64,000 nucleotides of DNA, taken from NCBI RefSeq assembly GCF_000149955.1, contig NC_030995.1, positions 496,001 to 560,000 on the forward strand, given 5' to 3'. This stretch comes from Fusarium oxysporum f. sp. lycopersici 4287. Lineage: Eukaryota; Ascomycota; Sordariomycetes; Hypocreales; Nectriaceae. Numbering within the stretch: the stretch's first letter is position 1; each line of letters starts with the position of its first letter. Position numbers and translations under genes: made by a program. The notes under the pieces were generated by a model. It had not been told where the DNA came from. It was given only the letters and a program-made list of their open reading frames with translations, and did not search any database. Shown here piece after piece: positions 5,257 through 9,910 of the stretch.

Positions 5257-6504
5257 TTAAATATCACCAGTCTTGAATAGCTCAAGGTGCTGGCGCTCAC
5301 GAGGAACACCGTTCTCCTCGAGGAATGCCCTGACATTAACCATCCAGTCCTCAGGTCCGCAGATGTAGTACTCAGCATCAGCATTGTCGAGCTGGAGAAG
5401 CTGTTCCTTCTGGAGCTTGGCAAGGTCGATCTCGCCCTTAAAGTCGTACTGGTCACCCTCCTTGACATCCTCAAGGAAGATCTTGGCGGTGATGTTCTCG
5501 TGCTTCTTAGCAGAGTCGAGAACATGGGGAACGAAGCAGGTAGAGCCAGAGTAGCGAGCACCGTGGATCCAGGTGATGGGCCGCGAGGCGGTTGGGGATT
5601 GGAGAACTGAGTCGAGAATGGAGACAAGAGGAGTGGCGCCAACACCAGCGGAGAGAAGAACAAGAGGCTTCTTGGCAGCAGAAGTGTCGGCAGGGTCGAG
5701 GGAGAACTCTCCAGCAGGAGGGCTCAGCTCAAGCTCGTCACCGACGTTATAACGGTTGTGAAGTCTTGTGGAGAGAAGACCAGCAATCTTGCCAGCAGCG
5801 AGATCCTCAACAGCAGGCTCCTCAGTGGGACCCTGAAGCTTGACACTGATGCGGTAGTGGTTGGTGCCAGGGGCCTCGCTCAGACTGAACTGCCGGCTCT
5901 GAAGAAGACCATCAAGCTCAGGGATGGGAATCTGCACGCTGACGTATTGTCCGGGAAGGAACTTGGGCAGAGGCTTGCCATCAGTAGGCTCAAGGTAGAA
6001 GCTAGTAACAGAGTCGTTCTCAGCCTCCTTCTTGACAATCTTGAACTTGCGCCACGAGTTCCATTCGCCAGCAGCCTCGTACATCTGACCCTCGCGCTGG
6101 ATGAAGATATCAGCGAGCTGGCCATAAGCAGCAACCCAAGCGTCCTTGATCTCAGTCGTCAAAGCAGAACCGAGAACCTCGCCAATGGCACCGATGAGAT
6201 GTGTGCCAACGATGGGGTAGTGCTCTGGCTTGATGAAGAGAGAAACGTGCTTGTGAGCAATGCGCTCAACGGCGTGGGAAAGCTTGCCAAGGTCGTCGAT
6301 ATATGTGGCGTAGGCGAGGACAGAGTTGGCGAGAGCAGCTTGTTGAGCTCCGGTCTGCTGGTTTCGCAGAGAGAAGTAGTTCTTGAGCTCAGGATGGGCG
6401 CCGAGCATGTTGCGGTAGAAAGTGGTGGTGATAGTCTTGCCATGCTCCTTCAGGATGGGAGCAGTTGACTTCACAATTGCTACTTGTGCTGCGGTGAGAG
6501 CCAT
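5257..6504 (-). CDS. YHB1: flavohemoglobin (nitric oxide dioxygenase)
   Basis: This 415-residue intronless gene encodes the cytosolic enzyme that oxidises NO to nitrate using O2 and NAD(P)H, protecting against nitrosative stress. Residues 1-145 are the globin domain, with Tyr30 (B10), a distal Gln near 54, proximal His86 in the KHVSLFIKPEHY segment and Tyr96. Residues 150-265 are the ferredoxin-reductase FAD domain, with the RQFS motif at 204-207. The NAD domain follows with GVGATP at about 287-292 and a YYICGPEDWM segment near the end. Length and domain order match E. coli Hmp and yeast Yhb1. The ATG is the first Met of the globin frame, and a TATA box lies about 120 bp upstream. The symbol is the yeast orthologue's name; many filamentous fungi carry two paralogues and I cannot say which this is. 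Confidence 0.95.
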   Translation of the reverse strand: MALTAAQVAIVKSTAPILKEHGKTITTTFYRNMLGAHPELKNYFSLRNQQTGAQQAALANSVLAYATYIDDLGKLSHAVERIAHKHVSLFIKPEHYPIVGTHLIGAIGEVLGSALTTEIKDAWVAAYGQLADIFIQREGQMYEAAGEWNSWRKFKIVKKEAENDSVTSFYLEPTDGKPLPKFLPGQYVSVQIPIPELDGLLQSRQFSLSEAPGTNHYRISVKLQGPTEEPAVEDLAAGKIAGLLSTRLHNRYNVGDELELSPPAGEFSLDPADTSAAKKPLVLLSAGVGATPLVSILDSVLQSPTASRPITWIHGARYSGSTCFVPHVLDSAKKHENITAKIFLEDVKEGDQYDFKGEIDLAKLQKEQLLQLDNADAEYYICGPEDWMVNVRAFLEENGVPRERQHLELFKTGDI

Positions 6505-6620
6505 TGTGTACTGTTTGTTTGGTGTTGAAGAGATGCGAGGAGGAGTTGAGAGGTTGTTGTGGTGTTGATATACTAGATGATGCCGAGAATAATGTCGTCA
6601 AACTGGCCAACCTTTAGACT

Positions 6621-6630
6621 CTTTATATAC
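6621..6630 (-). promoter_or_regulatory. TATA box of the flavohemoglobin gene
   Basis: Reverse-strand GTATATAAAG lies about 117 bp before the flavohemoglobin ATG, the expected distance for a strongly inducible fungal promoter. The assignment is by position and motif only. Confidence 0.5.
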
Positions 6631-7784
6631 CAGGCCGGAGAACCAGTCATGGCGCGGAGAAAGAACATTACGCTCTCCATGACTCTCAAATCCAGGCATC
6701 ATGCCATGCGAAAAGAATAGCTCATGGACCCGAATACAGCGCCGTTCGCCGTGTGGGTTCCTGGATCACCGACCGATCTTGATAGTGGTCTGATGGTTTT
6801 GGTTAGAGCATCTCCGCGGGGTGAGCGGCACGTCACCGGGATTGGCGCTGGAGCTTCTTTTTTTGGATCCCGTTTTTTATTACTACATTTGTTAATATGT
6901 TTCGTCGGATCCAGACTGATGGAAATGCAGGGCCCAACTATATCCCCAGGCTTGACGTTCCTTCATGCGAATGCCCCGCCGTCTTGCGTGTAAGTTTGGG
7001 AGAGGCAGGGTAGAGCAGAGACGATCAAATACCCTTGTGTCATGGTTTTGCATACGTTGCATTGAGTTGCCTGACAGTCAATGGCTCAAACAGGTCAGTT
7101 ATTTCGTGCTGAAAGGCCTCAATTGCTCAGCGAAAACTCTTGCACTTCGCGGAGATGCGGAAATACCCAGCTCTTGACCTTAAATTTTTGATGCCACGAG
7201 CTTAGAATATTGAAACCTGTGACAAAGAGTGGGCTGACACCTGTAAATAAGCTTCGGATCACCCCGGGTTCTCGAAGATAGATCGGAACGGCTCTTGCGG
7301 CTGCAACGGGTCGAGACTGTAAATTCCTAGCATCGACAAAACATCTGACTTTTGTCGTCAATCCAGAGTCGCACTCGCAGGGGGCGGAATACCACCGCGC
7401 GAATCATTGCTGCAAGATTGATAAGCACCACCCGGGAATACTGCCTTGACAGCTGGATCTTGGTGGAGTAACACGTAGAGCTTCCTCAATTTGTGTCTCC
7501 TTGTGACTTGTAAGGCATGTCAGGTCTGTCTATTCCATCCCACGTCATGACCTTGATACATATCTTGGCATGAAAGCTGAAAAAGGGTTGTTCAGACAAA
7601 GGAACTATTCCGCCCTGCTTGACAATTGCTCGTCTCTCGTTGGTCAATGGATCGCCTCAATTCATCCCTCACTCATGATACCCACTGCAACGGCACAACC
7701 CACAAACATGTCGGCTCTACTGTAACAACTCCACCATGATTCCAAGCAGGGCTCATAAATCTTTTTCTCATGAAAATTCCCATC
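6631..7784. other. intergenic region, about 1.1 kb
   Basis: No gene is recognised. Short open frames here have no protein-like features. The right end flanks the tRNA gene. Confidence 0.5.
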
Positions 7785-7930
7785 GGCCGCGTGGCCTAAT
7801 GGCTAAGGCGCTAGATTTCGGTTCCAGATCTCCCGAACTCTCTAGAGATTCCAGGTAGGCTCTCATTCAAACGAGCTTCTCCGCATCCAGGCACTAACAT
7901 CTCCAAAAGGTTCGACTCCTGGCGTGGTCG
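7785..7930 (+). tRNA. tRNA-Arg (anticodon TCG) with an anticodon-loop intron and a 55-bp T-arm insertion
   Basis: The acceptor stem is GGCCGCG (7785-7791) pairing with CGTGGTC (7923-7929); the discriminator is G7930. The D arm is 7794-7809. The anticodon stem CTAGA (7811-7815) pairs with TCTAG (7841-7845), with anticodon TCG at 7818-7820. A canonical intron (7822-7839, 18 bp) follows position 37; its CCGAA pairs with the anticodon-region TTCGG, as in normal tRNA introns. The T stem is interrupted. CCAG (7851-7854) is separated from GTTCGACTCCTGG (7910-7922) by 55 bp (7855-7909) that start GTAGGC, contain ACTAAC and end AAAAG. Removing both insertions gives a standard 73-base cloverleaf. The A box (near 7792-7802) and B box (GGTTCGACTCC from 7909) are intact. 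A T5 run at 7952-7956 can end Pol III transcription. Whether the T-arm insertion is removed is unknown; if it is not, this is a pseudogene. Confidence 0.85.
7855..7909 (+). other. spliceosomal-intron-like insertion inside the tRNA T stem
   Basis: The 55-bp segment begins GTAGGC, has a perfect ACTAAC branch-site element about 12 nt before its AAAAG end, and contains no T4 run that would stop Pol III. Size and signals match the protein-gene introns in this window (45-60 bp, CTAAC branch). The junctions are ambiguous by up to three bases because AGG ends both flanks, so the GT-AG boundary is one permitted reading. Confidence 0.75.
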
Positions 7931-7951
7931 TATGATCTGATCAATTTCATA

Positions 7952-7956
7952 TTTTT
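7952..7956 (+). terminator. RNA polymerase III terminator of tRNA-Arg
   Basis: Five consecutive T residues lie 22 bp after the tRNA end on the coding strand, the first run of four or more T after the gene. Confidence 0.6.
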
Positions 7957-8204
7957 GGCCAATTTTTAATGTTGGCTTCTTGCATTAGCCCTGAACATCA
8001 CTGCCTTCTTGGATTCGCTAATGAATGCGTCGGGTATTATTGTCAGAGTTGTCTAATCGCTCAATTCACTGCTAGCCGGCAAACATCTTCCGTGAAGGCC
8101 GAAGCGTCGGCCATTCTTCTCTTTTGCAACCGATGGGAACGCTGTAACTAACGTAAAAAAACGACGAGATCCCGTCATCGCGGCCGAATGGCTTTGAAAC
8201 GAGG

Positions 8205-9910
8205 TTATACCTTGCGAGGTCTGCGGTTCCTCCAATAACTATCAGCGGGATGTTGTACTGTCTCGATTGAACGGCATCCGGGGTGCCAATGGTCTTCTTC
8301 GGTTCCAAACGGCCACATAGCAATCGTGTTGACCTCATCTGGTTGACAGGGCTGTGGCTTCTTCCAGGTTGACCAACCGAGATCGCTCATCAGTGCCCGA
8401 ATCACTGCTCGACCACTACTGATCGCCTTTTCCATTTCAGTATCGTTTTCGTTGTCAAGTCTGATCCTATAATCGTCCAAATCCGAGCCGGATGCTTCGA
8501 GCAAGCGATTGCGGACCAAAAACAATGTTTGACAGATAGTGCCCAATACTGTATTGAGAGATGTGTAGATCAACTCATCTTCGAAACTCCATTGTTGCCT
8601 GGCTTTGAGGGCTGGCCGGAGGTAGTGTAGCCGGCATTGCTCAATAGCATCGGAAGTCTTATTGACCTCTCTTTGGTCTACCATGGAATTATCATCGGGT
8701 GATGGCGGTGCGTTGTACCAGGTCAACGTAGCAGCCTCGACCTCATCGATAAAATAGTGCGACTGCAACGGTTCGTGCACCATAAGTGCCAGTCTCTTAC
8801 TGTAACGAGCGATGACAAGGTCCGCCACGCCTTGCCAATCCACGATGAACCTCCGAGGCTGACGCAACACGTTGGCCAAGTACGCCTTGACATCTTTGAG
8901 CTCCTCCAGCGTCGCCAGAGACCAAGTCTCTTCAGATCTGGGCGCCCTACGACAGTACTGGAGATGTTGATGGGAAAGAAGAGGCCGGACACCATTGACG
9001 AGAAATCGATCCGAAGTCGATTAGCTCCGACGCCATCGTATCGCTCGCCAACCGCTCTCACAAATTGGAACGTTGCCAAGCCGGCTTTCCCCATGATACG
9101 GTCCATCAGCTCTGTACGCATCATGCTGACTAGATCTAAGCTGTCCGCAAAGTCGCACTTGATAATTTCGATACCGATCTCAATTCGAACAAAGCCATCG
9201 AAGCCCCATTCAGATGCCAGTTTGCACAAATCACGAGCTCGGTGCCATTCGTCCATACTTCCCCTATCGGTGTTGTTCTCGCGAAGGACCAGATCTTGGG
9301 AATCGAGTGTGCCCATGTCGGTTTTTCCAGCACTCATACCATCAATCAACAGAACTTTGAGGTCACGATTTGTCTGGTACGTGTGAAAGTAACCCCTCAT
9401 GACAACAGGATCATCATCCCCTTTTGGGTCAGCAACCTTATCCAACGGATCATTGCCATTGCCGGTCTTTATGTACTCGCTGCGGCGTCGTAGTTCCTGG
9501 CGGTCTTCTTCTTCTCCAGTCTGTCCCTTATCCTCATCTGGCTTCTTTTTGCCAGGGGGAGGTATTGGGGCTACAGGGCGTCTTCCACCAGGCCTATACT
9601 TGAAAGATCGTGCGAAGTTTTCGGCGTGTTCGATATCAAAAGCCAACCACTCGGGCCCAGTCGGTGTTACGTTTTGTCGAGAGCCGTGGTAAAGCATGGT
9701 GCCTTCGGGCACAGTAGCCGGAAAGAAGCCAAAGCCATTATGGTACAGGGCAGAACCCCATTCTCGACCTGCGGAGTGGATTGCATTGAAAACCATATGC
9801 GCCCTCTCTTTGGCATACTCGTGTCCTGGCTGGATTCGTTCATGGCCATTCGCGACACCAAGAGCGAGCGCTAAAACGCTCAAAACACCAAACGAAGCCT
9901 TTGGAACCAT
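8205..9910 (-). CDS. secreted protein of unknown function, probably frameshifted
   Basis: The first frame runs from ATG 9910 with a clear signal peptide (about 22 residues, hydrophobic, ending VANG). It then has an LYHGS motif near residue 74, a proline/lysine-rich linker, and segments such as YFHTY and DEWHRARDLCKLASEWGFDGF. I recall similar hypothetical secreted proteins in plant-associated Fusarium and Colletotrichum, with no assigned activity. Around 8920-8927 the coding signal moves to another frame, which continues to the stop at 8205 (LATLEELKDVKAYLANVL onward). One missing base there explains it, because residues just before still look like family sequence. An alternative is a 104-bp intron (9061-8958, donor GTGAGA, acceptor CTCCAG), which also restores the frame, giving 533 residues, but it would remove family-like sequence. 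Gene reality is fairly sure; integrity is doubtful. Confidence 0.65.

Follow-up and report, generated by a model that had tools for sequence, protein, structure and literature searches.

Introns are cut by two separate machineries: the spliceosome, which acts on mRNA and in some fungi also on U6, U3 and rRNA, and the tRNA endonuclease. The locus described here raises the question whether a tRNA gene can carry an intron of the spliceosomal kind. Within the window, by which we mean the whole 64,000-nucleotide stretch of DNA analysed, a tRNA-Arg(TCG) gene has a 55-bp insert in its T stem in addition to the usual intron in the anticodon loop, and an initial annotation of the same DNA had read this insert as a spliceosomal-type intron. 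Judging from sequence, we consider it somewhat better than an even bet (probability about 0.55) that the insert is a genuine, spliced U2-type spliceosomal intron in one of eight tRNA-Arg(TCG) genes. If this is true, the tRNA pathway is open to the spliceosome, and the timing of splicing relative to the trimming of tRNA ends, folding and export becomes directly testable.

Anatomy of the interrupted gene and its paralogs

The Rfam tRNA model RF00005 matched positions 7785-7930 on the + strand over its full length with 34.2 bits (cut-off 29), the T-arm insert being modelled as an insertion. At its standard setting ARAGORN found zero tRNA genes in the window, which, if the insert is spliced, would illustrate how such genes can be overlooked by annotation programs. 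With introns allowed, it miscalled the unspliced gene as Gly(CCC), and Arg(TCG) was called only with 7855-7909 removed. The gene has the following parts (positions in the window; paralogs are the seven other tRNA-Arg(TCG) genes of the genome):

7785-7930, + strand: tRNA-Arg(TCG) gene, matched end to end by RF00005
7785-7821, + strand: exon 1, from the 5' strand of the acceptor stem up to position 37; 37 nt identical in 7/7 paralogs, matched by RF00005
7792-7802, + strand: A box TGGCCTAATGG, from sequence
7822-7839, + strand: canonical anticodon-loop intron, 18 bp, between positions 37 and 38; same site as the 17-/21-bp introns of the paralogs
7840-7854, + strand: exon 2, positions 38-52, ending CCAG; identical in 7/7 paralogs
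7855-7909, + strand: putative spliceosomal-type intron of 55 bp, interrupting the T stem at 52/53; GT-AG, branch site, missing in 7/7 paralogs
7855-7860, + strand: candidate 5' splice site GTAGGC, score 5.79
7887-7891, + strand: decoy CCAGG within the insert, predicted to pair with the 3' T strand CCTGG when unspliced
7893-7898, + strand: candidate branch site ACTAAC (CTRAY) with branch A 7897; the 12-mer at 7892-7903 is common to the intron of the U6-1 gene
7907-7909, + strand: candidate 3' splice site AAG, of the RAG class; AAG also ends the first intron of the U6-2 gene
7909-7919, + strand: B box GGTTCGACTCC, whose first G is the last base of the insert
7910-7930, + strand: exon 3, position 53 to 73; identical in 5/7 paralogs
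7952-7956, + strand: first downstream T run TTTTT, probable Pol III terminator, 22 nt past the gene (range for the seven paralogs, 2-24 nt)

The sequence, RF00005 and ARAGORN together place the 18-bp anticodon intron and the 55-bp insert at 52/53 where the initial annotation had put them. Its account of the signals can likewise be read directly from the DNA: the A and B boxes are intact, the insert begins with GTAGGC and carries ACTAAC, the branch A of which lies 12 nt from the insert's end, and T4 is absent, both from the insert and from the gene as a whole. The distance from A-box to B-box start is 117 bp, compared with 61 in L034, the only paralog measured. As far as sequence tells, the host gene thus has Pol III promoter elements and a terminator, namely its two boxes and the T5 at 7952, and the pairing of the anticodon intron is kept in the computed fold. 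Apart from the insert, the gene carries no visible damage.

A whole-gene search of the genome, which like our other genome searches covered the 61.2-Mb, 71-contig assembly, scored 8/8 candidates and found eight tRNA-Arg(TCG) genes, the window copy and seven others. The insert is missing in all seven paralogs, each of which keeps a 17- or 21-bp anticodon intron. Exons 1 and 2 are identical in all eight copies, while exon 3 is the same in five of the seven paralogs and has a C to A change in the T loop in the other two; cutting out 7855-7909 yields the tRNA sequence of those five. The window copy does differ from the paralogs in its 18-nt anticodon intron and in its 5' leader and 3' trailer. The initial annotation had named other intact genes, combined with an absence of RNA joined at 7854/7910, as grounds for calling this copy a disrupted pseudogene, and the seven genes that lack the insert supply the first of these two parts. 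Given seven intact copies, the window copy is dispensable and its loss tolerable, and the undamaged exons may merely reflect a young insertion. With one gene interrupted and seven not within one genome, intron gain in a Pol III gene becomes testable.

Several other origins of the insert were considered and rejected. An introner-like element or repeat was dismissed because no second copy of the insert was found in the genome, a 65-bp query matching only itself at E up to 10. A tandem duplication of tRNA sequence was set aside too, the longest words shared by insert and gene having 6 letters (TCCAGG, also in the T stem, and ATCTCC, also in the anticodon intron). As to self-splicing group I or II introns, tRNA was the sole Rfam model that matched the window at gathering scores, and introns of these groups have a conserved catalytic core far above 55 nt in size. 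No word of at least 13 bp is shared between the insert and the rest of the window, and a search for a genomic region paralogous to the flanks found none, matches being limited to tRNA parts. Exact tRNA patterns gave 0 matches in viral_contigs and genome_contigs, two collections without Fusarium relatives.

Candidate splicing signals and predicted fold of the insert

The insert contains a single GT, at its very start, and reading on from the branch site the first AG met is the one at its end. From branch A to final G the distance is 12 nt, within the 9-16 nt seen in ten CTAAC intron candidates of the same genome. According to PMC5677156, 91% of Fusarium introns (n=2022) have a CTRAY branch site and the median intron length is 57 nt, close to the 55 nt of the insert. 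The same source gives G at donor position +4, as in the insert, for 4% of Fusarium introns, and RAG acceptors for 5.69%, YAG being preferred; the insert ends AAG. Scored with the published Fusarium frequencies, the donor GTAGGC reaches 5.79, a value not exceeded by about 22% of donors sampled from these same frequencies. The window has 7217 GT sites, of which 4.4% score at least as high as this donor, and 111 CAGGT sites, of which 18% do. On sequence, the branch site and length of the insert are therefore typical of Fusarium introns, and its donor and acceptor are weak though attested.

The ends of the insert call for caution. AGGT stands on both of its flanks, which makes the junction ambiguous: five cuts are equivalent, and one of them is GT-AG. 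Any insertion that duplicates AGGT yields a GT and an AG, so that both ends are weaker evidence, largely given by the target. The spliceosomal signals named by the initial annotation are thus present, and the weight it laid on GT and AG has to be reduced. The AGGT hit by the insert is the only one in the gene, and the independent evidence for an intron consists of the well-placed branch site, the length and this hit on the gene's only AGGT. Even if the insert is unspliced, the locus shows neatly how an insertion can conform to intron rules by landing at AG|GT.

How often chance would produce such a structure was estimated by simulation, with seven lengths of target duplication and 60,000 random 55-bp insertions at each. 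Across the seven lengths, a GT-AG cut exactly undid 0.7-8.1% of the insertions. Insertions that combined the GT-AG fit with a CTRAY in range made up 0.018-0.34%, and those that had a GTRNG donor as well 0.005-0.023%. In natural sequence, among the 504 GT...AG 55-mers on both strands of the window, the insert counted, CTAAC was in range in 7 and CTRAY in 24, CTRAY occurred together with a GTRNG donor in 5, and CTAAC together with GTRNG in a single one, the insert.

Removal of the insert would matter for the fold. In the predicted structure of the unspliced precursor, the decoy CCAGG pairs with the 3' T strand with a probability of 0.7-0.9, and the true T stem has 0.01; for the sequence lacking the insert, the T-stem probability rises to 0.8-0.97. 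Since the decoy helix holds the 3' T strand, a normal T arm is not expected unless the insert is removed. The earlier claim that its removal restores a CCAGG/CCTGG stem agrees with these predictions, and with the identity of the resulting sequence to that of 5/7 paralogs.

We searched the genome for further cases with CTAAC, CTGAC, CTAAT and CTGAT patterns ahead of AGGTTCRANYC, a design that covers inserts before the B box only. The four patterns matched 11, 10, 5 and 7 places (33 in total), compared with 12, 15, 13 and 10 for the reversed controls. The window gene and two uninterrupted Arg paralogs (L084 and L085) were among the 33; at the other 30 loci, Rfam at E up to 1 recognised one tRNA, an ordinary Lys gene that overlapped the match by chance. 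The separate tRNA family search of the genome scored the best 63 of 2201 candidates and is not a full tRNA census.

U6 snRNA introns of the same genome

The initial annotation had invoked the introns in U6 snRNA of some fungi as a precedent, and this precedent is found in the same genome. A family search, which scored the best 47 of 3779 candidates (further U6 copies may exist), found two U6 genes with three GT-AG introns between them:

G000:C4:3413432-3413598, - strand: U6-1 (L089), the best U6 match, 61.6 bits
G000:C7:3890933-3891136, + strand: U6-2 (L090:1454-1657), 36.6 bits as found, cut-off 44

The intron of U6-1 is 57 nt long, lies between ACAGAGAAGAU and UAGCAUGG and reads GTAGGT...CACTAACATCTCTATAG. 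U6-2 has two introns, of 49 and 51 nt, the first of which ends AAG; they are probably the reason why this gene falls below the Rfam cut-off. A reading of L090 as a processed U6 fragment proved wrong, the locus being this second gene with its two introns. After joining, U6-1 and U6-2 agree over the conserved U6 core and both end in a T run, and the 5' stem of U6-1 is unlike that of U6-2. All three are GT-AG introns, 49-57 nt in length, whose CTRAY places the branch A 11-12 nt before the intron end. A TTTT in the first U6-2 intron might act as a weak stop for Pol III. B-box-like sequences occur in the U6-1 intron (CGTTCGAGCAC) and in the first U6-2 intron (AGTTCGACTTC), where 9/11 positions match, compared with at most 7/11 in the tRNA insert; a weak internal match is expected there because the tRNA has its own B box.

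We infer that the introns of both U6 genes are spliced, since U6 is essential and fungal U6 introns are known; the latter are reportedly the subject of a dedicated paper. With three GT-AG introns in its U6 genes, this organism would presumably have Pol III transcripts that are spliced by the spliceosome. The G at +4 in U6-1 and the AAG in U6-2 mean that both weak features of the tRNA insert have counterparts among the Pol III introns of this genome, the rare AAG end being common to the insert and the first U6-2 intron.

The U6-1 intron resembles the insert further, in that both start with GTAGG and contain the 12-mer CACTAACATCTC. We compared 294 distinct CTAAC contexts from the DNA examined, and the longest identity to the U6-1 branch region, U6-1 itself aside, was that of the insert: 7 letters beyond CTAAC are matched by U6-1 and the insert alone, and two contexts reach 6, one of which had been fetched for the motif. 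In global alignment to the U6-1 intron the insert ranked 1st of 23, the others being 22 mRNA-type intron candidates, with a score of 10.0 that was not above signal-fixed shuffles (p 0.14 and 0.17). Two of the 22 candidates aligned with the insert better than U6-1 did, namely one in L024 (14.5, p 0.001 uncorrected for 25 comparisons) and one in L060 (13.0, p 0.036). The comparison set is biased and holds candidates only, having been picked by open reading frames and a consensus-leaning score, loci fetched for CTAAC or CTGAC included. The L024 candidate (L024:699-745) adjoins a tRNA-Asp gene, and its alignment may reflect chance or an incorrect intron call. Because U6-1 does no better than shuffles and two of the 22 candidates do better than U6-1, we claim no parent for the insert.

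The 12-mer CACTAACATCTC occurs at 18 places in the genome, its context having been read for the insert and U6-1, and the reversed control at 8; the excess is possibly an extended branch-site flavour of other introns. The pattern GTAGGN{25,55}CTAACATCTC matched 8 places, representing 5 distinct sites, against none for its control. U6-1 and the tRNA gene are two of these sites; at the remaining three (L091, L096 and L097) Rfam matched nothing at E up to 0.5. Among the short pattern matches, L078, L079 and L081 on the one hand and L091, L092 and L094 on the other form two triplets of identical sequence, probably repeats.

The likeness of the insert to the U6-1 intron is thus confined to signals; common descent is possible and not established, and the comparison was made post hoc. 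In fission yeast, the position of the U6 intron near catalytic nucleotides has led to reverse splicing being thought its source (PMC10484740). A fuller scenario for the present gene would be a tRNA that needs both the spliceosome, for its T arm, and the tRNA endonuclease, for its anticodon loop, the second intron having been reverse-spliced from a U6 lariat with donor and branch sequences still shared. We regard this combination as improbable.

Precedents and competing explanations

The initial annotation knew of no eukaryotic tRNA gene with such an intron. In the open-access literature that we searched, no report of a spliceosomal intron in a tRNA gene was found, which is weak evidence of absence, and the word stem 'spliceosom' is absent from the available portion of PMC4033280. 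The statement of the initial annotation needs a qualifier, since some eukaryotes do have ectopic tRNA introns at positions other than 37/38: they occur in Cyanidioschyzon merolae and in the nucleomorph of Guillardia theta, and are discussed in connection with bulge-helix-bulge (BHB) motifs and the tRNA endonuclease (PMC3978253). The description of tRNAscan-SE 2.0 allows a eukaryotic tRNA gene no more than one intron (PMC8450103), whereas C. merolae is said to have multiple tRNA introns (PMC3978253). The introns of C. merolae, the G. theta nucleomorph and Archaea resemble the present case as second introns outside 37/38; they are discussed as BHB/endonuclease type (PMC3978253), whereas a convincing BHB was not found in the insert. 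From the canonical 37/38 intron, present in the window gene and the seven paralogs, the insert differs in position and signals.

According to PMC5832005, no small structured RNAs other than U3 and U6 are known in which interruption by an intron is frequent. Fungal U6 introns share with the tRNA insert the setting of a small structured Pol III RNA, GT-AG ends and CTRAY, but U6 is a component of the spliceosome, whereas a tRNA lies outside it and must also pass the tRNA endonuclease. The introns of fungal U3 snoRNA are likewise normal spliceosomal introns in a small structured RNA, although those surveyed end YAG in all but one case (PMC5832005) and the insert ends AAG. A lichen rDNA intron of 57 bp, transcribed by Pol I, is removed by the spliceosome of yeast after transfer to that host (PMC8527467); it is, as the insert would be, a spliceosomal intron in a structured RNA not made by Pol II, but the RNA in its case is a large one and a product of Pol I.

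If the insert is spliced, a U2-type intron would have entered one tRNA-Arg(TCG) copy at the AG|GT of its T stem (CCAG|GTTCG). Relying on the A and B boxes, which are intact, RNA polymerase III would transcribe the gene as far as the T5 at 7952, and the spliceosome would remove 7855-7909, with U1 at GTAGGC, U2 at ACTAAC and the exons joined at AAG|G. The true T stem CCAGG/CCTGG could form once the insert is gone, and the tRNA endonuclease would excise the 18-nt anticodon intron, as expected for the paralogs; we infer the order of these two splicing steps. This account is favoured because the combination of GT-AG, CTRAY and GTRNG is rare in random insertions, and because of the typical length, the CTRAY itself, exons that match 5/7 paralogs, the lack of T4 and the terminator. 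The three comparable U6 introns of the same genome and the published precedents of fission-yeast U6 and lichen rRNA add to it. What weakens it are the weak donor and acceptor, the ends given by AGGT, the seven intact copies and the decoy helix.

The same weaknesses feed the main rival, a spare copy inactivated by insertion, which we hold to be a real if doubtful possibility. In that case 51 bp of DNA would have landed in the T stem and duplicated the 4-bp AGGT, or a break there would have been repaired with filler sequence; the insert's likeness to an intron would stem partly from the AGGT target and partly from chance, and the tRNA would not be made or would be degraded. Seven intact copies, AGGT on both flanks, poor donor and acceptor and a T stem blocked in the predicted precursor all fit this explanation, but it leaves to coincidence the branch-site distance, the intron-like length, a single GT and first AG exactly at the ends and signals in common with U6 introns of the same genome, and the exons and the pairing of the anticodon intron are undamaged. 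That the insert is instead an intron of a Pol II transcript crossing the locus, a long non-coding RNA or an untranslated region whose splicing does not serve the tRNA, appears very unlikely. Spliceosomal introns do normally sit in Pol II transcripts, and a plus-strand transcript is conceivable here; against this, the insert sits where its removal gives back the tRNA exactly, base for base, and no plus-strand reading frame of at least 200 aa overlaps 6469-8702, in a search confined to uninterrupted frames of that length.

Less probable again is an ectopic intron of the red-algal or archaeal kind, which the tRNA splicing endonuclease would cut. C. merolae and the G. theta nucleomorph do have ectopic tRNA introns, and in the nucleomorph many of them lack a defined BHB (PMC3978253). 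The insert lies at T-stem position 52/53 rather than at the endonuclease position 37/38, and at its five equivalent junctions the central helix of a BHB reaches at most 3/4 pairs, all three of them G-T by inspection, with spliceosomal signals present instead. The test is crude, and since the genuine anticodon intron also scores 3/4, it speaks only weakly against the endonuclease. An assembly artefact we consider the most remote of these explanations: a single assembly is the basis of the analysis, but the insert is non-repetitive and has exact intron ends, and neither a second copy nor paralogous flanks that could have been mis-joined were found.

Next to the tRNA gene lies a flavohemoglobin (nitric oxide dioxygenase) gene at 5257-6504 of the window on the - strand. 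Together with the genome size, this one protein points to Fusarium and probably to the F. oxysporum complex. In a database clustered at 90% identity, which leaves near species unseparated, the next matches of its product were a JGI protein at 92% and named Fusarium proteins at 86-87%, and its best match, 100% identical over the full length, was the displayed protein of a cluster bearing the name of Fusarium odoratissimum.
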